DNA of 64,000 bases from Chiua virens. Its lineage: Eukaryota > Basidiomycota > Agaricomycetes > Boletales > Boletaceae. The stretch lies in NCBI GenBank assembly GCA_019787685.1, contig JAHNUO010000010.1, forward strand, positions 1,116,001 to 1,180,000. Reading direction: 5' to 3'. This document shows positions 2,504 through 20,500 of the stretch, one piece after another. The notes below the pieces were generated by a model. That model was not told the DNA's origin and did not search any database. It saw only the letters and a program-made list of their open reading frames with translations. The position numbers and the translations under genes were made by a program. How positions within the stretch are numbered: position 1 is the stretch's first letter; the number at the start of each line of letters is the position of its first letter.

Positions 2504-5500
2504 TCATATGGTCACTGTTTCACTTGCTGAGTTATTGGCTAAAATATATTCAAAATATAATTTGAATAAAAGGGCTAATGGCTTACAAATAAGATTTTGA
2601 GAAATCAGAGGCATAATGAGCTGTCTCATTTGCCTTGCAACTCCAAAGTTGAATTGAGGAATAAGCTCAGAAATTGCTTTCTTGACTTTGTGGATTGTTC
2701 CAGATGATTCATAAAGTTGAGCTGCAACCATAATTGGATTTTCAACACCTTGCTGGTGTAGAAAGAAGGAATGTTCAAGAATAATGGCAAACTCTACCAA
2801 ATACTGATGAATATAATTATCGATTTTTATTGAAAACTGACCAATGCCTAGATAAAGTGCTTGGCACCATGGAGCCACTTTCAAAGGAGACTAAATTATA
2901 TATATGAATATGAGATATGAATAAACATGAAATCAATAGACTTACTAGAGATGTAGATGGTGAAGAATGTGTTACTGCATTTTGATGAATAAAGGGCTTA
3001 TGGAAAAAAAAATTGGATTGATCAAAACAAACAAAATAAGAAGACACAATAAATCAACATACACCCTGAGATTTCAATATCTGTTTGGTTGATATCAATA
3101 CTGGCATTGTAAATATTTGAAACTTGATATCACAAACCTCCTATATGTAGAATAGAAGTTAGAATAAAGCAGACTTGGGAATTCTATTCATACCTGCTAA
3201 TCAATTGAAAGGAATGAAAGGAAAACATTAGAAATGCAAGCAATTGATATATGTGTGCACAGGCTCACATCCTAAGAAATGGTGAAGTAAGTGAATGAAT
3301 CAGAGGTAAGTAAATTCATACCATCTATTATAATATAGTGGAGGAAGACATGTATCAAGATAAAGATTAGCATTCTTTTAGAACAAAAATCACAATTGGA
3401 TATCTTACTCTCTATATGTAAATGAGAGAAAGGGGCAAAGATAGAGAAGCAATTAGCATTCTTCTGAAAGTTAATTCATAATGAGAGCACTAACTTCCTA
3501 CAAATAAAATGACAGCAGGAAGGATGAAGGAGTGTTAGCATGACTTTGGAAGTCCATTGACAATCAGAGCACCTACATGCTATAATTTGGAGGACAGAAG
3601 CAGGGACAAAGAGCAGGGATAAATTCCAACTGACTCAAAAGCCTATTCCCAATTAGAACACTCACTTGCTACAAATAACATAATAATGGGCATATGATTA
3701 AAACCACATGAGTTAGTATCCTTTTAAAGGTCTGTTTGTAATAAAATAACAACCCACTGGCTGTAAATGAAATGACAGAAGCATACACAAATAAAGAAGC
3801 ATGGATCAGCATCCTTCTAGAAGCCCTTTTACCAACCAGGGCACTTACAGGCTATAATGAGAGGGTGAAGACAAGGTTGATGAGATACAAATTAGCACCC
3901 TTTAGAAGCCTATTTACCAACCAGGGTACTTACAGGCTACAACAAGGACACACAGGCATAGATCAGCACCCTTCTAATCCAAAACCCATTCACAATTAGA
4001 GCACTTACATACTATCCATGAATAGAAGGATGATGCCAAAAACAGCCAAGCATGGATGAGCATTTCTCTGAAGGTCAATTTAAATTAAAGCACTTACTAA
4101 CTATGAATGAGAGAACAAGGGAAAGAATAGAGGGGCATGAATTAGTATCCCTTTGAAAGCCCAGTCATGATCAGAATACTTACAAGCTATGGATGAGAGA
4201 ACAAAGGGAAGCATGGAGAGGCATGGATCAGTATGCCTCTGATCATAATCAACACACATACTGTTACGGTAGTTCCGGGTAGGACCTAACGTAGCCGCAA
4301 AAGCGCCAAGTACCAAGTGGCTGCGATAACTCAAACAACCACCACTTGGTATGTGGTGCGCTGAAGAGTCGAACAAGGAGTTCTGGTCAGCGGGTGGCTA
4401 CCAGAGAGACGAGTGAAGACTCAGGCGTTGCTGAGAATTGTCCAGTTGGGAATCTATACCCTTGGGACGGTCAAGGTTCAAGGGTACCCTGTTGAGGGTT
4501 CGAGTGTGGGGTCAAGGGACGACGAGAGAAGTCCCAAGTCAAGAGGTCACAGGGATGGGATCCGAGTGGAGCAGTGATACTCAGCTAGATTGCGGGTACT
4601 ACAGAAGTACAGTGGTACGGAGGGAGTATCGCTGCGAGTAATATACGTTTGATATAAAGGGTGTTCCAACGAAGGGAAGAACTAAGTAAAGGGAACAAAG
4701 GTGAAGTGGGGACACTTCGTGAGAAGAGGGAGTCGTGCAACGACGACCGATCAAGGAACAAAGAAGCTACCATGCTATGGAGCGATATGATCTCCGCAAG
4801 TATGGGGAGTAGGTCATAGAGCGGAAGAGCTAGGTAAGAGTCCATTGGGAAAATGGAGTCGACAAGGCAAAAGAGAAAAGTTGTAACACATACAAGCTAT
4901 GAAAGAGAGGGCAGAGACAAAGATAAAAGAACATGGATTAGTATTCTTCTGGTTTGAGACCAATTCACAATTAGAGCACTTACTGCCTACAAATGAGAAG
5001 ATAGGGACAAAGTTAAAGAGGTGTGAATCAGCATCCTCCTATAAGTCCATTCATAGTCAGAGCACTTACTCCCTATAAATGACAGGGTAGGAAAGGGACA
5101 AAGGGGCACAGTTCAGCATTCTTCTAAAAGCCCATGCATAGCACTTACAAACTATGAATACAAGGACAAAGGCAAGAACAAAGCATGGAAGTCACCATCC
5201 TTCCACAAGGTCACTTATAATCAGAGCACTTACTGGCTATGAATGAATAAACAGAGGCAAAAACAGAGAAACATGCATCAGGACCATTTTGCAAGATCAT
5301 TCACAATCAGAACACTTACTCCCTATGAATGAAATGGTAGGGACAAGGACAAAACAGCATGGATCAGCATCTTGGTCCAAGCTCATCAATTCACTTACAT
5401 TCTATGTGAGAGGATAGGGAAAAGAACAAAGGCATGAATCAGCATCTTTCTGAGCCTATTCACAATAAGAACACTTACAAGCTATGAGTGAGATAATAAA

Positions 5501-8500
5501 GATATGGACAAAAGTGATTTGATTGGCATCATTGTGGTCCAAAGCCTATTCACAATCAGAGCACTTACATACTATAAATGAAAGAATAGGGAAAAGATAC
5601 AGAGAAGCATGGGTCAGTATCATTCTAGAAGCCTATTCATAATCATACCACTACTTACTGCCTATAAATGAGAGAAAAGGGAAATGATGAGGCATAGATC
5701 AGTATCCTTTTGAAAGCCCAGCTATAATCATAGTGCTTACAAGCTATAATTGGGAGGAAAGGGGCAAGGACAAATGAGCATGAATGAGCATCCTTCTAGA
5801 GGGCCATTTACAATTGGGGCACTTACTGCCTATGCATGAGAAAACAAACACAAGGATAGATAGGCATGGATTAGCATTTTTGAATGCCCATTCACAAAGC
5901 ACACACAAACTAGGGATAAGAAGACAAGAGCAAGAACAAAAAGGCATAGGTCAATATCCTTCTGAAAACCTATTTACACTCAGAGCACTTACTTGCTATG
6001 AATAAAAGGACAGAAGTAAGGACAGAGAACAGAGGGTCATGGGTCAACATTCTTCTAGAAGCCCATTCACAATCAGAGCACTTACTTGCTATAAATGAAA
6101 GAACAGGGGGAAGGGCAGAAGGGCATGGATGAATAATCTTCTGGTCCAAAGCCTATTTACAATCAGACCACTTACAAGCTATTAATAAGAGGTGTAAGGA
6201 TAGGGACATGGATGAACATCTTTCAAGAAGCTTGTTCACAATTAGAGCACTCACATACTGTATATGAAAGAACAGGAACAAGGACAAAGTGGCAGTGGTA
6301 TGGATTAGCACCCTTCTGGAAGCTTATTCACAACCATAGCACTTACAAACTACATATGAATGAGAGGAGAGAGGCAAAGGCCAACAGGCATAGATCAGTA
6401 TCCTTCTGGAAGCCCATTCATAATCAGAGCACTTACTGCCTATAAATGAGAAATTAAGGGCAAGGGAAGAGTTACTTTTTCAGGATATCAACTAACAATC
6501 AGAGCACTTACCTCCTATGAAGGAGAGGATAGGAATAAGGACAAATAGGCAAGGATCAGTATCCTTTTGGAGGCCCATTCACCATTAGAGCACTCACTCT
6601 CTATGCATAAGAAGCCAGGAACAAAGGCAGAGGGGCATGGATTAGCATTTCTACAAACCCATTCATGATTAGATTACACACTGCCTATAAATCAAGGGAG
6701 AGACATGGACAGAAGGGCATAGATTAGCTTTTCTAAAATCTTATTTATAGCTAGAGCACTTACAAACTATGAATAAGGGCACAGGGAAGAAGATAGATTG
6801 ACATGAATCAGCATTCTTCTGATCCATTGGAAACCCATTTACAATCAGAGTACTTACTGCCTATAAATGAGAGGACATGCACAAAGACAGATGGACACAT
6901 TGCAATAATGTGAGGCATGAGCAATCGCAACGTAAGATCTTCGGACAAGCGGGCGAGGAGCTCCCACGCTTCTCTCTTCTGAGCTCCTCACACCAGCTCT
7001 ACGCTCGAGTCCAGCTTGCCCTTGAGCTTCGTCACTTCTTGCTACGCATTCCTTCAGTAGTTTCACCCTTAGCACCTTCATTTAAGTGGTTACACCTTTC
7101 ACTATAATTAGTCCTTTCTTTAATCATGGACCAGCAACCTGAACCCATGCCAGACTTTGCGGCCGACAATGCGCGTCCATTGCGAGATGCCCTCATCCTC
7201 GCCTTCAATTGGGACGAGGAGCAAGCCATCAGACACCTGCAGGACACTTGGCGTCAAGCTCACCCAGAGCAAGAGCAGCCTGCAGATCCGCCAGCGAGAG
7301 AACCAGCGCCAGTCCCTGAGGACAAACCAAGGAACATGGCCAAACCGGCACAGGACAAAAAGAAGTCCATAGCAGACTTCGATGAGGACATGCCTCCACC
7401 CAGCTTCATTCCCACCAGACCATCACAATACGCCCTCAGCAAACTCGAGGCTTTTGAATATGTGGAGCTTTGGTACTTTACTAAAGAGGGTTGCTTCGAG
7501 GCTGCAAAGCAAGCACGTTCGCAACCAGAGGATGCCTATGGCCTCCTCTCGACGGAGGACATCCTCACCCTTCGTCCAGTCACGTCGGTCAAGGCCTCCA
7601 GGAATGCCAAATCCGACCACGAGTTATCCCTCACAGAGATGCTACAGGCGCGCACCTCATACCTGGAGCACGTCAGAGAAGCTGGTTGGCCGGAAAAGCA
7701 CATTAATGCACTTTTCAAGTTCTTCTGGAACCTCGAATCCCACCCGTATTGTTCACTCATGAGACACGGCGACCGCATCCTCGCCACCTATGCAGCGAAA
7801 ACCAGGAGGCTCTGGCATGACAAGCTCAAACTGGGCCTCGGCAATGCCTTCAACATAGCCCTCATTAACGACCATCTAATGCAGCAAGTCGTCACAGAAG
7901 TGAATGATGCCATGCTCGGACAGGTCAGTCCGATTCCTTGCTTGTTTCGTACCACGAACTAACAGCAACCATACCCTTTTTTTTTCTCTCTCACGCCTGC
8001 CCTCGCTGTTATGCCTGTGTGCTCATACTTTTTCAGCCCACGTTCTAATGGATGCCTCTTGACATGATGACTTGTGCAGGTCAAAAGTCTCATGTCCTCA
8101 CAGGCATCTCCAACGTCGGGCCAAAGGCGGTCTCGCCACTCACAATCTGCACGTGCAGACCTAATGCGAGACCGCCGTCATAACTCGAGATCTCTCTCTC
8201 CCCTCCAGCAGCGGTTTCGCAGCTCTAATGGATCGAGCAGAGACTTACCCCATCCTTCCATGGACACGAAGCCCCCCCAGAAGCGTCCCATGCAGGGAAA
8301 TGGGCGTCCGAAGTCGGCATGCCCTACTTGCCTCGGAAGAGGCCCCCACGACTTCTACAATTGTTTCGTCAAATTCCTATGGGATGGGTCCCCAGCTTAC
8401 GCCAGATGCACCCCAGAGGGATGTCTTGTTGACCCCAATGGACACGTCTTGATGATCTGTGGCGATGCAAAGCTCAGCCACAGAGCTAAGTCTTTGGACG

Positions 8501-11500
8501 AGTGGAGTTTAGCGGCACTCACCTCTTTCCTTCGTGCCGCCTGCTCCCCCTCGCACTGCAGGATCACTCGTCCTCAACTTTGTCGCTCACTCACCATCCT
8601 TTGCACATCTTTTCATTCCTTTTCTTTCATTTCACCATGGCTGACCCCAACCTCGAAATCCGTCCTGACTTTGCAGCTGTTCTGTACCAACCCGTATGCA
8701 ACGCCATCATAGCAGCAAACAACCTCAACGACGACGAAGCTATCGCTATCCTCCAGAACGCCTGGGACATGGACCATGATACTCGAGTAGCCGCCTGGAA
8801 CCAACAACAAGCAGCCAACCAGCCAAACCAACAAACCCCCCCCCCGCCACCCCCTCCACAGCCACTACCGCTGCCTCTACCTCCTGTGCAGCAACAACTG
8901 CCTCAACCTCCAGAGGAACCAGTCCAACTCCCGGACCAGCAGGTCCCTGACAAAGGAAAGACCAAGGCTATCGATTTCGACATCAATTATGCTCTCACAA
9001 AACTCTCATCCATCGAATACGTCAAACTATGGTACTTCACCCCTGAAGGCTCTGCAGAAGCCTCCTTGCTTCACCGCACCCAAGCTGATGACACTTTTGG
9101 CATCACCAACAACAACAACGTACTCACCTTACGCTCTGTTGCATCTGTGAAAGCTTCGTGCAACGCGCGCGCCGACCATGACCTTACCTTTCTCCAATTC
9201 CTACAAGGAAAAGACTCCCTCCTCCACTTCGCCAAACAGCTTGGGTGGCCTGCCAAGCACCTTGACAGCATGGCACTCTTCTTCTGGAACCTCGAGAACC
9301 ACCCCCTCCACAGTGTCCCACAGGGAGACCGTGTCATTCTCCATTATGCCGAGCGCATCCGCCATCAATGGCACGACGACATGAAGTATAACCCTGCTGA
9401 TGCGTTCAATATTGCCATCATCAATGACCCGTTGATGAACTCCATTGCCCTAGAAATTAGCCTCACAGCACAGAACCGGGTCACACAAAGAGTCAGTTTA
9501 TTCCCCATCTTAATTGCGAATTTGTCCTAATAACATTCCCCTCATGTCATCTTCTTCGTCACTCCAACCCCCTCCCAACCCTTCCGATGGCCATGGTATA
9601 TTCATTACCCCATTGACGTTCATCATACCCACACATGGGAATGTGCCCATTGATCCACTCCCTCATGATTAGAACGAGCACTCCCACAAGTCCTACCGCT
9701 CTCCACCACTTTCACGAAGAGTGCGCCGTGCTTACCCGCACCACTCTGAGGCACCAGAGCGATGCCACAATTCCCGCTCCACCTCCCCGCCACCACCCCA
9801 ACGCCGATTTCGTGCCACCCAAAATCCCATCCCATCCTCCCCCCCCCCAAACCTCGCCGCCGCCGCTCTTCCAGTGCCTCCAAGCATTGCAAATCAGCCT
9901 GCCCAGTATGCCTTGGAAGACACCCACACCGTGTCGGGGAATGCAATGAACCCAAGCTCTGGGACAGCAGTTCAGATGCATATGCCTGCCGCTCCACAGA
10001 AGGGCGCCTTGTCGACTCCAAAGGAAATGTCTTATGCAGTGACTGGCAAAAACCAAATGGATGCGCCCTCGTACATAGATCAGCCCGTCATGATTGCTCC
10101 GGCTGCAGAGACCCCAGCCATGGTGCTCAGAAATGTCATCATGCACAGGTGCGGCTGAGCCATAACTCCTTATAAGTGTTACAATTTCTTTCTTTCGTCT
10201 CACTCGTACTCCTTTACTTCACTCGATACCTAGGTATCCTCGTACGTTCATCCGTACTCGTTTCTCCTTACCTTTGTAACTCCGCACCGGCCTTACCCGA
10301 GTGCTTACGTTTCCCCTTTCACGTCATCATCCGATGGCATCGTACTTACTCATTTCATTCTCGTCATCATCCGATGGCTTTGCATTTGTCATTTCATCTT
10401 CATCATCGTCCGTTGCCTTCGCATCGTACGATTTCCCCTTTTGTTTACTGCGCACTCCTTTTGGCCCTTTGGCCCTTCCGCTCTTCTGGCCTTCCCCTTT
10501 TAGTTACTTGGTCCGTGCGCAGTTCTCGTAGTATAAATACCTCGCAGCGATACTCCTGTACCCCAGTCTTGATCTCTGCAATCTAGCTGAGTATCACTGC
10601 TCCACTCGGAACCTTCCTTGTGACCACTCGACCAGGGACTTCTCTTGTTGTCCCTTGACCCAAACACTCGGACTCAATGTAGTCAACCCTCGACCCTCAA
10701 CCGTCCCTCGGGTATAGATTCCCAACCGGACAACTCTCAGCAACACCTGAGTTTTCACTCGTCTCTCTGGTAGCAATCTGCTGACCAGAACTCCTCGTTC
10801 AACTCTTCAGCGCACCACGTATCAAGTGGTGGTTGTTTGAGTTATCGCAGCCACTTGGTACTTGGCACTTTTGCGGCTACGCTAGGTCCTACCCAGAACT
10901 ACCATAACAATAAGCCTGAGGCATGGCGGCGCCTACTCCTTTCCACCGATCTACATAACCAATACCCAGACATATATGAAGGACTTTCACACGGCTTCAT
11001 CGCCAATGTTCCCCCACTCACTTCCACCTTCTCCCCCCCTAATAACCCATCTGTTTATGAATTTCGCCACATATTCAATGAAAACCTGCAAAAAGAATTT
11101 ATCAAAGGACATTACCTTGGTCTGTTCTCCCAATGTGATATCGAGGATGTGCTGGGTCCCTTCCAAACCTCCCCCCTCTCACTAATCCCCAAGCCAGGTA
11201 AACCGGGCAAATACCACCTCATACAGAACCTCTCACACCCACACCCACCAGCTTCTCCTCCCTCTATCAACTCCCTCATTCGCTCAGACGATTTCCCTTC
11301 CTCCTATAGCACTTTTCCCGTAGTAGCCCTACTCCTAAGTAGCTTGCCACCAGGTTCCCAGGCGGCAGTACAGGATGTAGCTGAAGCTTATTGAACCATT
11401 CCCCTGCACCCGTCCCAGTGGCACGGTCTCATAGTTCGTGTATCAGATTCAACGTTTGCAATTGATACATCATTATGCTTCAGTTTCGGACCCTCTGGTG

Positions 11501-14500
11501 GTATTTATGGCAAGGTCGCTGGTGCTGGTGTAGACCTCATGCGAGCTCAGGGTATCAGGCCCATCCTAAGATGGGTTGATGACCATTTATTCATTAGACT
11601 CCCGGTATCCAGCATACAACATTATAATCACCAACATTCACAAGCTGCTGCCCGCATAGCCTCGAACAAAAACCCTATTGTCAAAGGTGGACGCCATTAT
11701 TTCATTGGATCCACCCTTACCAATGGTGAAGCTGAACAATTTGACGAGAACTGCGTGTTCCCCATCAGGGACTTTTCCTCCACCTCCCCCCGTCCTCCAG
11801 AGGACCAATTATTTTCTCATAATTTTGAGGATATAAACCGTATATCAGAAGAATTGGGCATTCCCTGGGAACCTTCCAAGGACTCCCCATTCTCCAACAC
11901 TCCGACATTCCTTGGTTTCATTTGGAATATCAATGCTCACACAGTCCAATTAACCGAGACCAAGTGAGAAAAATACATCACTGCGATCTGCGAATGGAAT
12001 TTACGCCACACACACATTTTATCTGATGTGCAGAAACTGCATGGCAAACTCGCACATGCTGCATGTGTGATACCCGATGCGAGACCCTATCTCGTAAACC
12101 TAGAGCTCATGCTCTCCATCTTTGGCGACAAACCCTGGCGGCCACGCACCCCACCAAAAGGAACCCATGAGGATATGAAATGGTGGTTAAAAAGCCTCAA
12201 TTCACCCACCCGTCCTATATCAATCCCACACCCCCGTCCTCCCTACCAAATAAAAGCCTACTCAGATGCGAGTTCCACCACAGGCATCGGCATCACACTC
12301 AATGATAAATGGCGTGCCTGGTCCCTGTGCCCTGGTTGGAACACAGACAGGCGCGACATTGGTTGGGCTGAAGCCGTTGGCTTCAAACTCCTTATACACA
12401 CCATACTCCATTCTGGCACCACTGACCTTCATTTCCAAGTTTTCGGCGACAACCAAGGAGTCATTGAGGGCTGGCAACATGGACGCAGTTGCAACCGTCC
12501 CATCAATGATGTCTTCAAATGCATTCACCCCATCCTGGCTGACGCAGACTGCTCCGCCGTCATCCACTACATACCCAGCGCTCACAACCCAGCTGATGGC
12601 ATATCATGTGGCATATATCCCTCCATACATTCCCTCATCCCAGCCTTCCCTATCCCCCAACCCCTCAAACTCCTACTCCATGACCCATTTACCCACATAC
12701 ACTAGCCCCGCACACACTACAACCCCTGGGCCCGCTAATGCCACTCAGGCGGGTGTATTAAAAATCACCCAACTCGCTGCTCCCATCAATGCTCCCACCC
12801 CCAAATCAACAAGATCCCTTTCCCCTGTTCGCCCATCTTGCCCAGCACGTGAACGGCTTGTCCGATGGCTTCCCTCTTCCCCTCATAAATTAGCTCTCCC
12901 CTTCGACACCACAGATGTCGACCGCATCTATGCCATAATTCCTTTCGCATGGGCAGAATCTACCAAAGAAACTTATGGTTCGGGCCTCCTCGTTTATCAC
13001 ACCTTTTGTGACTTAAAACAAATACCCGAGCAGCAGAGAGCCCCAGCCTCTTCTGACCTCATCACGGCCTTCATATCATCCCTTGCAGGCCTTTACGCTG
13101 GATCCACTATCATCAACTACATCAGTGGCGTGCATGCATGGCACACGATACATGGTCTCACTTGGTCACACAAATCCGATGAGACTGATGCTCTCATAAA
13201 AGCCGCCAAATCCCTCGCTCCCACTGCCTCAAAACATCCACCTCGGGAACCTTACACAATCAACACCATTTCTATTTTGCACGGTTTTTTCAAGCACTCC
13301 TCCCCACTGGATGCTGCTGTTTTTGCCTGTCTCACAACCACCTTCTTTGCCACCGCCAGAACTGGCGAATTCACAGTACCCACAATCACCATGTTCAATC
13401 CTGAGATCCACATCACACCGTCACACGTTACGAAACAACAGGATTGAAACGGTGTTGAAATAACTAATTTCCGCCTACCGCATACAAAAGCTGCCCCTCT
13501 CGGAGAAGACGTCAATTGGGCCAAACAGGACGGCCTTGCAGATCCCCAGGAAGCGCTGAACAATCACTTTCGTGTCAACTTCCCCACTCCCAATGCCCCC
13601 TTGTTTGCATACCGATCCCCTAAAGGAATCCTCAAACCGCTCACACAAGCCAAATTCCTTAAGACTCTGGAATCCGTCACCAGCAAAGCTGGATTACCTC
13701 GCATCAACGGACATGGTATCCACATTGGATCAACCCTCGAATATCTCCTCCACAACATTCCCTTCAATGTAGTCAAGGTCAAAGGGAGATGGGCAAGCGA
13801 CACATTCCTACTGTATCTAAGAAGACATGCACAGATCTTAGCCCCATACATGCAAGCCGAATCCGAACTTCATCAAGTTTTTCTTCGTTACACCATTCCC
13901 CCGATTCAGAGATAATCTACAGGGTAAGTCACGATCGCCTCCTACTTTTCGGGTGTACTCACTTCGCAGCACGCATCACCGAATGCTCCTACTGGGTTGG
14001 GAACGCAGCTCATCTCTCACCTGACAGGTCTCAGCTTCTGTCCTAGGCCAGGTAGCGCTACACGCTTCTGCCCAATCCTCTCTCACAACTTTTGTCACAT
14101 CCGCTTCCATGTATTGTATTTAATGTTGGAGATCACAATCTCGATTAGTAATAGGTACAGCCATCGCTTACGTAACCGTAGGTACACCGTTCAGTTGTAC
14201 CGTAGTTTCTCTATTGAAGTGACTATATACACACATTTAGTGTTTTTTACAGGTTATGAGCCCTTGTAGTGCTTAAATCCCCCCACCCTCCCAATCACTC
14301 ACCAGAAGCCAACATGGACCCTTCCGACTCCGTCGAACTACTCCCGGACGGAAGCAATTGGCTCGAATGGCGCATAGCCATCGCTGTTGAAACAACAAGC
14401 AAGAAGGGCGCAAAAACGCACGGGAGAAAAACGGCAGCCGCAGCAAGAGTACCGGGTATGGGGCCCCCGGACCAGACTGACAACATAAGACCCGCATCCC

Positions 14501-17500
14501 CAGCGAGCAGCCCCGCGCGATCCCAGCCAGTCGAAACGACCACCACGACGCACGTAAGGACGCCGCCGCGCACAGCCGCATCGAGCGGAAAGAGCCACGG
14601 AAGTGCAGGACAGGTCAGGACAGCGGGGAGAGAGAGCGTCAACGAGGTCAACGGGCATGGTGGAGCCCAAGCAACCAACGACGACTCGCCACGTCAAGCG
14701 CCTGCCAAGCGCATCGACGAAACCACAACAGCAAATGGCACGGATACGTCGGCAGACACGACCACTGCCAAGACGACAGCAGGCGCGTCAGCAGACGCAG
14801 CCGCACCCAATAGCATGCCCAGCATGTCGCCCGAGGGGGAGCGACACCGTCATGACACGGCCGACAACGCTGGAGCAGCCAGCGGTCAACACCGCAACAC
14901 ACTGCCAGACAACGCAAGCGCACGATGCGCGCCGCACGCGCACGACGACGAAGGGCCCGGGCACTACCCAGACACTCTGAATGAGGGGGAGCGTACTGAG
15001 ACACCCCAGACGGCATCGACTGAGGGGGAGCGGACGAGCGCACACGCTCACGAGCAATCGATACCGCCTGACGAAGAAAACAGTCAGCGCGACAGAACGA
15101 TCGATGAAGACTCACCCGGAGATCCTCAAAAGCGAACCGGAAGCGATGGGAGTGGCCAAAGGATGGATAGCACAACGAGCGGCGCACGCCACGGCTCGAA
15201 ACGAGTCAGAACGCGGTCGCTAGCTGGACAGCAACATCAGTCCGAATGGAACAAAGACAAGATAGGAGCGAACGTACCAGCACCATCCACACCATCTCCT
15301 AACCATACCCGACGTCCCCTCCATCATCCGAATCCGCCGCGTCACCGAGGACGAACGAAAACACGAACTAGCCGAATCAGCCGGCACCATATGAGCGGAA
15401 TCGCTCACCTGGCCATACGGTCGCACCAAGACCGACCCGGACGCCCAGAACGCGTCGTATATAGCCTACACGAGCCACGGGAATGATCAGCACACAGACG
15501 ACAGCAGCGGGACGCACCACGGAGCGAGTAGAGGAGATCGTGCGCACGTGCACTATCCCATATCCGCGACCTGCCATATATGGACACCGCTCGAGCGTGC
15601 CGCTTCGGAACCTTCGCATTCACCACGGACTCATAGCATACCTCCACCTTCCTTCATAAACTCATCGGAGGTACATTTCACTCATTTTATTTACATCCAT
15701 TTTCTACTTAGCTACCCAATCTTCGATTGAGGGGGAGTGTTGGAGATCACAATCTCGATTAGTAATAGGTACAGCCATCGCTTACGTAACCATAGGTACA
15801 CCGTTCAGTTGTACCGTAGTTTCTCTATTGAAGTGACTATATACACACATTTAGTGTTTTTTACATTTAAGTAGTTTACAAATACAATACACCACTTCCC
15901 CACTCCTCACGAAGCCAGTCCAAAGATTGTGCAATGACTGGCAAAAACCCCAAGGTTGCTCACGTCCCCACAATGGTGCCAAACATGCCTGCTCAGGCTG
16001 CGGAAACTCCATGCACAGTGCTCAATCATGCCCTAAAGCGCAGCCACGAGACAGCGAAAACGCCATATAAACCTCAGGTGTGGCACACCTTCCTTGCAGA
16101 CGCCAGGCTACTATCGCATTATCCAAATCTCCTTGAGGGCTTGACTCATGGCTTCCGGGCATTCATGTCAGCATTATCTGTAACATATGCGCCCCCCAAT
16201 CATCCTTCCATTCTACAATACAAAGACATCTTTAATGACATTGTGGATAAGGAGTTTTCGAAACAGCAGTACATAGGCCCCCTCACATTATCAGAAGTGC
16301 ACCTCGTCGTTGGTCACTTTCAAACCTCCCCACTCTCCTTAATACCCAAGCCTGGTAAACCGGGCAAATACCACATGATTCAGGACTTGTCACATCCGAG
16401 AGGTTCAGGACAAATCAAATCCATTAATGCAGCCATGTCGCCAGATGACTTCACCGCAATGTACAGTACCTTTCCCATAGTAGCTCTGCTCCTCACCTCA
16501 CTACCACCGGGTTCTCAAGGAGCTGTCAGAGATGTAGCCGAGGCATACCGTACCATTCCCGTACACCCATCACAATGGCATGGCTTAGTAGTTCGCTTGT
16601 CAGAATCCCATTTCGCCATCAACACCAGGCTATGTTTTGGGTTTGCCCCATCAGGAGGCATCTATGGCAACCTTGCTAGTGCCAGTGCTGACATCATGCA
16701 TTTTGCTGGCATCAGGCCTATCCTGCGGTGGGTAGATGATCATCTTTTCCTTCGTATACCTCGTATCCATCTCCATAATTACAACATCATGCGGTGTGAA
16801 GTGGCACAACAAATCTCGTCACAGGGAGGACCATCTATACATGGTGGTCGTTTCTGGTTCAAAGGGGAACAATTGCCAGATGGCTCACACAAGGAATATG
16901 ATGAAGACTGTTCCTTCCCATTGCAGGATCTTGCCTCTGCGAGGAGCAATGGTCACCTTGACTCAGAAAACCAGTTTACATATGATCTATCTGACATTGA
17001 TCACATCTTGGAACAGCTAGGCATCCCTTGGGAGCCATCCAAAGACATCCCTTTCTCCACCAGCCCAACCTTCATTGGATTCACCTGGGACTTGGAGGAC
17101 CACACAGTAAGGCTGGCAGAATCCAAACACCTCAAATACCTGGCAGCCCTGCAGGATTGGGCATCTAAGCGTGCTCACACACTCCATGAAGTCCAGAAGC
17201 TTCTTGGCAAGCTCACGCACGCATCACAAATCTTCCCAGAAGGGCGACCTTACCTCATCAACTTGGAGGCAATGCTCACAATCTTCGGGAACAAGCCTTT
17301 CGTCCCACACACCCCCCCCAAGAACACACAAGAGGACATACAGTGGTGGACGACCCACCTTGCAACCCAATCTCCCCCTGCCCCCATCCCAACACATCAC
17401 ATGCAACTTCCCATCAACCTACATGCCTTCTCAGACGCCAGCTCCTCTATTGGCATTGGAATCATCATCCAAAACAGGTGGCGTGCATGGACTCTACGAA

Positions 17501-20500
17501 ACGGCTGGAACCAGGATAGCATGACATCGGCTGGGCAGAGGCAGTCGGCTTTGAACTCCTCACCCACACTCTTTTCTGCTTCGTTCACCCCCACTCCACC
17601 ATTCTCATCTATGGGGACAACCAGGGTGTCGTTGAAGCCTGGCAGCGGGGCCACAGCAGGAACAAACAAGTCAACAACATATTCAAACGACTCATTCCTG
17701 AGCTCATACACCGAGATTGCCATGTCATCACGCAGTATGTACCCAGCAGTGGGAACCCGGCCGACCCTCTTTCACACGGCATTTATCCCTCCATTGACTT
17801 ACTCCTCCCTCCCATCGACATCCCAAACGACCTCGCCCCCTATCTCCTCGACCCTCCTTGCCTCACAAACACCACCCATTCGCGGGAACACTCAGGCACA
17901 CACACAACCCAAAGGTTCCATTAACAACCCACCATAACCCACCTTGTTGGCCCAAGCACTCGCGGAACAACGTTCACCTCTCCCAGTCTCCAGGCCGCCA
18001 CTGTCCGAATCCATAGATCACGACAATGAGCTCACCCAAACGCGAGGGGCACAAGCACCAGCTTCTGCTTTACGTCCACATTGTGCAGCCAGAAACTGCC
18101 TCCTGATGTGGAAACCAATTCACGCTCGCATGCTCGCACGCTCCAACATCCACTCCAGCCTGAAGACACTCAACATCTCTTCAGTGTGATCCCACATGCG
18201 TGGGCTGACTCCACAAAAGAGACGTATGGATTGGGACTACTCGCCTTTCACACTTTCTGTGATTTCAAGTCAATTCCAGAGGAGGAGCGAGCGCCAATCG
18301 CAGCAGATGTGATGTCAGCCTTCATCTCCCAATTAGCAGGGACATACGCCCCCTCCACCGTCGTCAATTATGTCAGTGCGATCCAGGCCTGGCACGCCAT
18401 CCATGGGCTTCCTTGGGACATCAATGAGAAGGAAACCATTCTCCTATACAAAGCCGCTCGCAATCTGGCCCCACCCACCTCCAAACGTCCACCACGTGAA
18501 CCATACACCCTAGCGACCATAGCAGCAATACGCTCACAACTAGACCTCTCCACCCCCCTGCATGCGGCCGTTTTTGCCTGCCTCACCACCACCTTCTTTG
18601 CTGCTGCGCGCACAGGTGAATTCACAGTCCCCACACTCAGATCCTTCGATCCAACCAGGCACATCTCACATGCAAACGTCTCCTCGGATCAGAATCGACA
18701 GGGCCTTGTAGTAACTTGTTTCGCCCTTCCCTGGACAAAAAAAGCACCCACCGGGGAAGAAGTCAATTGGGCGAAACAGGAAGCACCGCACGACCCAGAG
18801 GAAGCTCTTTTCAATCATTTCCATGTGAATAATCCACCGGATTCTGCAGCACTATTTGCATATCGTTATCGCATGGGGCATGTTCCCCTCACACACTCCA
18901 AATTCCTGAAAGTGCTCGACACCGCCATCGCAGCAGCAGGCCTTCAGCCCTTAAACGGCCATGGCATTCGGATTGGCGCCACCCTGGAGTACTTGTTGCG
19001 AAAACTCCCCTTCGAAGTTGTCAAGGTCAAGGGCAGGTGGGCCTGCGACTCTTTCCTCATTTATTTGCGCAAACACGCACAGATCTTGGCACCTTACATG
19101 CAAGCCAACCTGGAACTCCACACCACTTTCCTCCAGCACACCATTCCACCCATCCAAAGGAGAAGCTGAGCACGGGCATCGCATAGCGACTCCTACCAAA
19201 TGGGTACGCATCGTTCACTGCATGCGTCGTCGCCTCAACACTAACAGGTTGGGAACGCAGCTCCCTGGCTAGCCCATCGGGTGCCCTCTGGGCCGAAGCG
19301 CTTCATGCTTGCCCATCCTCTCATATCCCTCGCATTCGTACGATCATATCACATTATTTGTACATACGTCCTCTACACTAATATTCCACTCTCTTTCTCC
19401 CTCTCGTCGGGTTTCCGCCCTAGCAGAGCACAGTCCAAAGAGGAGAATGTATCAACATTCTTCTGTTAGCCCATTCACAATTAGAGCACTCACTGCCTAC
19501 AAATAAGAGGGGCATGGACAGAGGGGCATGAATCAACATTTTCTGAAAGCCTATTCAGAATTAGAGCACTTACTCTCTATACATAAATGAGATAACATGG
19601 TTGAGTTTTCATGGCTATTTATTCACACTTCAAAACTTGCATACCTGAACATGTGGAAACCATGATGCAATTGCTTTCATCAATTTCTGCTGCTCAGAAT
19701 CTGTCAGTGATTTTTGCTTCCTGTTTATATTGTGAATGAAAGGTATGAGGGCCCTATGTGATATTTTAACAGATATAACCAAGGTTTTGTAAATAATATT
19801 AGTAATTACCTTTCTAAAGCATACTCAATGCAGAGCATGATATTGGTGTGTTGTGCAGTCACAAGTAGCTTTTGCAAAGCTTCTTCATTCAGGGTTGCCC
19901 CAGTCCTTTCCAGAAGAAGCTTGCACCCCTCATTGATCTTGTGGAGATCTTTTGTATATGAAATCAGCTTGAACATGACCCTCCAAAAATTTTACATACC
20001 CTTTAACTCCACATATGCCTTTGGTGGATACCTCATTGCTTGTACCCTCTCCCATGTAGGGTTATTCTTCAGCAAACTGTCAACATTATGCTGTCCCATT
20101 GCAAGCCTTTCTGCTAGAGGTAGTTTGTTGTCCTCAAGTTTTAAGGCTGCAAGGCATTGCACTAGCAGTGCATCACATTTCGTGAATACAAGTACAACAG
20201 GCACTGTGAACAGACAAGAAACATGAGAGAAGAAGCATCATACCCAAGCAAAACTTACCATTCAGCGTGTTACATTCATCAAAAAACTGTTCCTCGGCAG
20301 TCAAGACACCCCGGTGGTATTGGTCCATCGAAATACAGTACCTATTCAACATGTCATTGCCGGTGTGGCATAAATACTGCTATCTCTGCTTACCATATAG
20401 CATGGACCCGCTTCTTGAGAAGTGCGGTTTTTGCACGCTCGGAAATAAAATCCTTCATCTGGTTGAATTCTTCTACACTACCCGCTTCGAAGCCCCGCGA

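Follow-up and report, generated by a model that had tools for sequence, protein, structure and literature searches.

Rows of predicted single-codon exons between copies of one intron in a GTPase gene family of Chiua virens

Several described systems resemble, each in part, a GTPase gene on the minus strand of a 64,000-nt stretch of the genome of the bolete Chiua virens (contig JAHNUO010000010.1, positions 1,116,001 to 1,180,000, referred to here as the window). In this gene a row of 3-nt units, each a predicted single-codon exon, is separated by copies of one intron. The repeats of the Podospora HNWD/het-d and het-e NLR genes also belong to a fungal gene family, and these tandem repeats are described as homogenised within and between loci, with a few codons per repeat highly diverse (PMC1805685, PMC2873952). 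The HNWD repeat unit is a coding WD40 unit, whereas the Chiua unit is an intron with one codon per unit predicted in the protein. The zinc-finger minisatellite of PRDM9 consists of tandem 84-bp units that vary at the recognition positions (PMC3890296). Those units are coding, whereas the constant part in Chiua is a predicted spliceosomal intron of 82-83 nt.

The introns of Schistosoma micro-exon genes are not known to be copies of each other. These genes are described as having many short exons in succession, most of a length divisible by three, and variable proteins; the exons are given as 6-81 bp in the text of one paper (3-81 in its abstract) and the introns are long, unlike those of Chiua (PMC10526429). 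Introners, or introner-like elements, are reported as many near-identical introns per genome (PMC9860276, PMC4457414). Introners are described as inserting into many genes, whereas the Chiua copies were found head-to-tail, 3 nt apart, in one gene family. The spliceosome can use exons of 3 nt and even 1 nt (PMC4674806, PMC7392893). The published 3-nt and 1-nt exons in those papers are single, whereas Chiua has rows of 15-74. No description of rows of single-codon exons was found in searches of the open-licence PMC literature, and a search there yielded no paper on the Chiua virens genome.

Single-codon units in a GTPase gene family

The reading that we consider probable from the sequence is that these genes contain a codon minisatellite with hypervariable codons and an intron as its constant part. 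The single-codon exons are predicted to be spliced into the GTPase and would be diversified by exchange and by selection on the peptide. The predicted hypervariable stretch lies between the GTPase part and the C-terminal helices.

The original prediction placed the row in one gene, but it belongs to a gene family with at least 25 arrays, each of 15-74 copies of one ~83-nt intron. The best protein matches to the window gene are Chiua virens gene models, and family contigs with those models are C2, C4, C8, C9, C10, C13 and C17 of the assembly. GTPase exon 3 has 84 matches in the genome, about 70 of them close, and a single array-unit pattern has 1385 matches with up to 2 mismatches (control 0). 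Twenty stretches of 8-10 kb were picked from array-pattern matches and read, so that their having arrays is by choice; L051 and L052 were picked on GTPase similarity alone, and both have arrays. Adding the window and L004, L011 and L018, three loci of 3 kb each, gave a dataset of 711 units in 26 loci, equal to 25 arrays because L035 and L036 form one array. The 711 include a false unit at window position 4260; without it there are 710 units and the same stops. About 12 more pattern-match places lie outside the read set, on C3, C4, C10, C11, C24, C26, C34, C46 and C70. Every read locus lies within a GTPase paralogue, as judged by exon 3 or exon 7 matches, although most were picked for strong arrays and single copies elsewhere would be undetectable.

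Five proteins were compared with MMR_HSR1 (PF01926) at the curated cut-off. P0029 and P0061 scored above it, P0008 (21.8 vs 21.9) and P0001 scored just below it, and the C-terminal piece P0121 had no match. The predicted fold of the GTPase may resemble that of immunity-related GTPases, in which a G domain is combined with a helical domain. Family matches extend to many Boletales plus Serendipita and Mycena, and several members differ in length or sequence past the WFPH motif, which lies near the end of the last conventional GTPase exon; in the family this exon ends in WFPHV(E/Q), followed by a phase-0 junction.

The AG-NNN-GT units of the window are present on the minus strand where the original prediction had placed them. 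A GT donor and an AG acceptor were requirements of the unit scan. Spacing was examined with an acceptor-donor pair score that ignores the spacer. With spacers of 0-12 allowed, 622/628 strong pairs in 22 loci and the window had a spacer of exactly 3 nt. Genome-wide there were at least 1463 matches with a spacer of three (N3), at least 11 with N4 and at least 29 with N6, the last judged by eye to be mostly N3 units in another register. Two positions outside the scan's scoring region were examined in 344 introns from 14 older loci. The branch-point A is conserved in 343 of them, and a T lying two bases upstream of this A in 337. Four array units, in L041, L035, L036 and L050, have GC donors instead of GT. 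Among 20 long gaps where the scan skipped units, 18 contain one or more 3-nt units whose donor is GT or GC; L031 has a 5-nt and a 2-nt spacer, and the gap in L043 is the tail that follows the array.

Two simpler accounts of the repeats were rejected. A translated tandem repeat is contradicted by the commonest unit lengths, 85 and 86 nt, which are not multiples of three. Each of six arrays tested also has stops in every one of its six frames, and the longest open stretch through them, of 171 aa, lies on the opposite strand. An ordinary minisatellite fails as a full account because variation falls mainly in the triplet and the spacer is 3.

Triplets, introns and flanking exons

The 711 units contain 32 kinds of triplet; the set differs from array to array and comprises 5-14 kinds. 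Stop triplets number 4/711, all TGA, whereas 3000 permutations of bases by position within arrays gave 78 on average and 59 at the least. Nearly one codon is used per residue: TAT occurs 114 times and TAC once, GGA 100 times and other Gly codons 5 times, TTT 54 times and TTC never. Units for the same residue share the same codon in 1769/1884 pairs, and Ile and Met are absent from the 711 triplets. The predicted array peptide of L046, for example, has 36 residues (EYGLGPGYYLDPLPPG..). Triplet composition is weakly correlated with gene relatedness (Mantel r 0.26, P 0.0008, 21 loci).

The third base is A or T in 97% of array triplets and C or G in 3%. In the C-terminal exon region of 16 loci, counted over up to 75 codons per locus that in some loci possibly run beyond the exon end, 41% of third bases are C or G, and TTC occurs 30 times and TTT 26 times. 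Host codon usage as the source of the A/T third bases is thereby rejected, and the array is not simply an ordinary exon cut up. The fixed 3-nt exons downstream of the array often end in G, unlike the array triplets. The original prediction read the triplets as whole codons of consecutive 3-nt microexons in a single frame that runs into the downstream exons, and we retain that reading as a prediction.

Its other argument, that the triplet is hypervariable while its flanks are conserved, extends to the whole dataset. Triplet diversity exceeds intron diversity in 26/26 loci, by a ratio of 1.7-765 (median 5.1). In young arrays intron identity is 0.98-1.00. The introns of L051 vary at one site only, and 328 of their 378 identical pairs follow different triplets. 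Intron changes are 72% transitions, with C to T and G to A foremost. No 3-bp target duplication was found around the introns, and the triplets on the two sides differ freely.

Close paralogues were then compared. L046 and L051 have flanks that are 98.6% and 98.2% identical, and 420/1015 intron pairs between the two arrays are identical, yet the alignment of their codon strings is no better than that of shuffled strings (P 0.88). In L032 and L052, whose flanks are likewise 98-99% identical, 117/600 intron pairs are identical and the triplet strings have no positional homology (P 0.35). Among six paralogue pairs only L037/L038 has a conserved triplet order (0/300 shuffles). The pairs suggest that codon strings can outpace introns in turnover, though not always. 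Unit number also varies between paralogues (36 vs 30).

Past the array the tail follows a common layout in 21 strictly matched loci, in which variable codons stand before and between a fixed GAT and a fixed GAG and an 18-nt exon follows. GAT and GAG are the second and fourth tail single-codon exons in 21/21, a count to be read with the fact that the strict pattern itself demanded them. All loci with at least 400 bases past the array matched it except L043, where a relaxed pattern gave GAT, CAG, GCA; L035, L052, L004 and L011 end too early for this test. Tail introns are only 65-85% identical to those of the window.

Relatives also have residues where Chiua has the array. Two of them are intron-free reading frames: P0008, of 438 aa, lies on a contig of 1529 bases, and P0121, of 298 aa, on one of 1094 bases. 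They run uninterrupted through a region that in Chiua is split by tens of introns, which makes it probable that they are complementary DNA (cDNA) sequences. Overall they are 61% identical, and between WFPH and an NLD motif they have 16 (P0008) and 32 (P0121) low-complexity residues that are mutually unrelated. The original prediction had looked to homologues for residues at this place, and these two have them. P0020 and P0029 are likewise variable here. The LD of NLD in the relatives aligns with the L or M and the D encoded by Chiua tail codons.

The public Chiua family models P0006 and P0012 stop near WFPH, and P0009 maps upstream of the L044 array. P0122 begins, as judged by eye, with the residues of the 18-nt exon as in L031 and L032 and continues with the same downstream exons. 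At 97% identity or more 2/11 Chiua proteins could be placed on read loci, and P0122 is not one of them. P0024, from Butyriboletus roseoflavus, stops right past WFPH like the Chiua models, and P0088 (JGI) has an N/W/D/R-rich stretch past WFPH. Arrays or array products may exist in other Boletales.

The copy in the window

The window gene runs from 21032 to about 2504 (Table 1). The seven conventional GTPase exons, based on the exon model and family matches, sum to 1029 nt, not the 1062 nt first given, and still end in phase 0. Of the 41 units originally counted, 40 appear to be single-codon exons, comprising 36 in the array plus ATG (3324), GAT (3271), CAG (3196) and GAG (3140); the last triplet, GGT at 3065-3063, is the 3' end of the 18-nt exon. 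The frame does run into real exons downstream, although these differ from the ones proposed and are 51 nt, 49 nt and a last exon from 2793. The resulting model has an open frame from the GTPase start through to the conserved C-terminus. Near-identical introns, which were also claimed, are a property of young arrays and not of this copy, where mean pairwise identity is 0.65. The window copy is old.

Table 1. Positions of the GTPase gene parts and of the inserts, in window coordinates
Feature	Position	Strand	Remarks
GTPase exon 1	21032-20712	-	exon model
GTPase exon 2	20652-20620	-	exon model
GTPase exon 3	20566-20394	-	exon model
GTPase exon 4	20341-20259	-	exon model
GTPase exon 5	20203-20000	-	exon model
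GTPase exon 6	19948-19810	-	exon model
GTPase exon 7	19720-19645	-	exon model; peptide ends WFPHVQ
36 array units, each a single-codon exon, with repeat-family introns between	3409..19576	-	first AGA 19576, last AGA 3411
Single-codon exon ATG	3322..3324	-	CTT, CTG, ATG, ATT or TTT in paralogues
Single-codon exon GAT (Asp)	3269..3271	-	identical in 21/21 strict tails and L043
Single-codon exon CAG	3194..3196	-	varies among paralogues
Single-codon exon GAG (Glu)	3138..3140	-	identical in 21/21 strict tails; GCA in L043
18-nt exon, ILKSQG	3063..3080	-	kept in paralogues
51-nt exon, PFIHQNAVTHSSPSTSL	2946..2996	-	
49-nt exon, SPLKVAPWCQALYLGI(E)	2842..2890	-	aligns with P0121, and by eye with P0122
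Last exon, begins FAIILEHSFFLHQQ	2504..2793	-	3' end uncertain; stop TGA 2506-2504 assuming no further intron
Transposon nest, in intron between array units 2 and 3	6930..19440		edges approximate
LTR-like insert, 627 bp, TGTTACAA..CCGTAACA	4262..4888		in array intron; 5-bp target duplication GTATG

The array is broken up by a transposon nest and an insert resembling a long terminal repeat (LTR). The nest is about 12.5 kb, and its flanking units are spaced 12,636 apart. The false unit mentioned above, AG-TAT-GT at 4260, is the end of the LTR-like insert. The nest contains two similar sets of open reading frames, for example 15934-17937, 18081-19169 and 12028-13447. Four of its frames were searched against Pfam without a match; two appear by eye to be reverse-transcriptase-like and tyrosine-recombinase-like.

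Possible origins of the arrays and their meaning

If the codon minisatellite reading holds, the intron would be the constant part of a tandem repeat and hence would be removed from the messenger RNA, so that only the variable codon of each unit would be retained and translated. Splicing would pass through the successive 3-nt exons by intron definition. With one phase-0 codon per unit, exchange, gain or loss of units inside introns would always preserve the frame. Through exchange the introns would become uniform, and selection on the peptide would maintain codon diversity. The zinc fingers of PRDM9 and the HNWD repeats of Podospora offer a parallel, except that in Chiua the scaffold would be removed by splicing. 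The resulting GTPase would contain a low-complexity segment that changes quickly. That this serves to recognise self/non-self or pathogens is a guess.

Several observations weigh against this reading. TGA triplets occur in L032 (one), L004 (one) and L048 (two), and L031 (C2:2027.6-2027.8k) has neighbouring units with the 5-nt and 2-nt spacers, which break the frame, though that copy may be dead. The window copy, given its 12.6-kb intron, may be dead as well. Stops are not alone in being depleted, for GGT, CGT, GTA and others are also rare, so that part of the depletion may be a constraint on the triplet alphabet. Under selection on residues alone synonymous sites are expected to be as constant as the introns, but fourfold sites differ in 65/764 within-array pairs and in L051 in 10/51, despite an intron diversity of 0.0008.

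Exchange between units also left few of its usual traces. Order is not conserved in 5/6 paralogue pairs. Block duplications were not found in triplet order (63 k=3 repeats vs 54 +/- 9 in shuffles), adjacent identical units are not in excess (113 vs 112 expected), and in 10 loci the introns of neighbours are no closer than those of distant units. Tajima's D is negative in 21/24 loci, an excess of rare intron variants, and positive in the three oldest loci, the window included; negative values are also expected under purifying selection. Taken together, the lack of blocks, the lack of a neighbour effect and the negative D are more easily reconciled with a burst, or with exchange over very short tracts, than with ordinary unequal crossing-over. 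Simple unequal crossing-over as the sole source of order was rejected for want of a block signal.

A burst is what the original prediction proposed, with an intron-like element entering one existing exon at one codon boundary after another. In its introner form one intron would have been copied, perhaps by reverse splicing, into each codon boundary of a low-complexity exon. Reverse splicing is how the spread of fungal introners has been interpreted (PMC9860276). The star-like relationship of introns within arrays, seen together with the missing neighbour effect in the same 10 loci, is as such a burst would leave it, as is the negative D, which purifying selection could equally produce. The codon order looks random, as in an ordinary low-complexity stretch, and in P0008 and P0121 the residues that correspond in position to the array form one contiguous, variable stretch. 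Insertion into a pre-existing exon is nevertheless hard to reconcile with a triplet alphabet unlike that of host exons, with its 3% of C or G third bases against 41%. Close paralogue pairs share introns and not triplets, and from the identical introns of L046 and L051 it follows that the string changed after or along with the spread of the intron. Furthermore, insertion at every third nucleotide, always in the same phase, matches no process known to us. We consider an introner burst unlikely.

The same pairs, with nearly identical flanks, shared introns and unrelated triplet strings, could be explained by a dedicated rewriting process, through mutagenic copying or cassette assembly, that swaps codons at the triplet sites and leaves the introns constant. 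The absence of block duplications also speaks for it, and in L051 synonymous triplet sites are more variable than introns. Random rewriting should yield synonymous codons, however, and only the 65/764 fourfold differences noted above were found. Random mutagenesis of the triplet was rejected on this ground, L051 excepted. In L037/L038 the triplet order was retained though the introns differ, and composition tracks gene relatedness. No enzyme or template for such a process was found, and no search aimed at one was made. Dedicated rewriting appears improbable.

The third alternative is that the array is skipped. All units would be removed either together, as a single long intron, or by chained splicing in which the triplets are lost, and the triplets would remain untranslated. 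Skipping of the whole array would likewise keep the frame, a further point against the codon minisatellite, and the flanking phases permit a direct join. Exons of 3 nt are difficult to recognise, and the public models stop near WFPH or begin past the array. On the other side stand the depletion of stops, the near restriction to one codon per amino acid and the exact 3-base spacing, together with the fixed GAT and GAG single-codon exons and the residues that relatives have at the array place. There is little reason to expect that skipping is the answer.

The codon minisatellite with an intron as its constant part is preferred over these three. A bolder version, in which the recognition stretch of the GTPase family consists of interchangeable one-codon cassettes in identical introns that are rewritten between close gene copies, with their surroundings constant, and read by dozens of successive single-codon splicings, is offered as a tentative possibility.

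Genome annotation can overlook such genes, as the public models that end near the array or begin past it illustrate. If the codons are spliced in, the spliceosome can assemble tens of residues codon by codon, far past the use of single 3-nt or 1-nt exons in the papers cited above. Introns would then be the scaffold on which a hypervariable protein region recombines, in an arrangement that inherently protects the reading frame. Three matters would become open to testing: the tandem multiplication of introns, their constancy amid differing exons, and the possible use of such arrays by fungi in recognition. Confirmation by RNA would make the arrays of Chiua virens a previously undescribed route to build and diversify a protein codon by codon.

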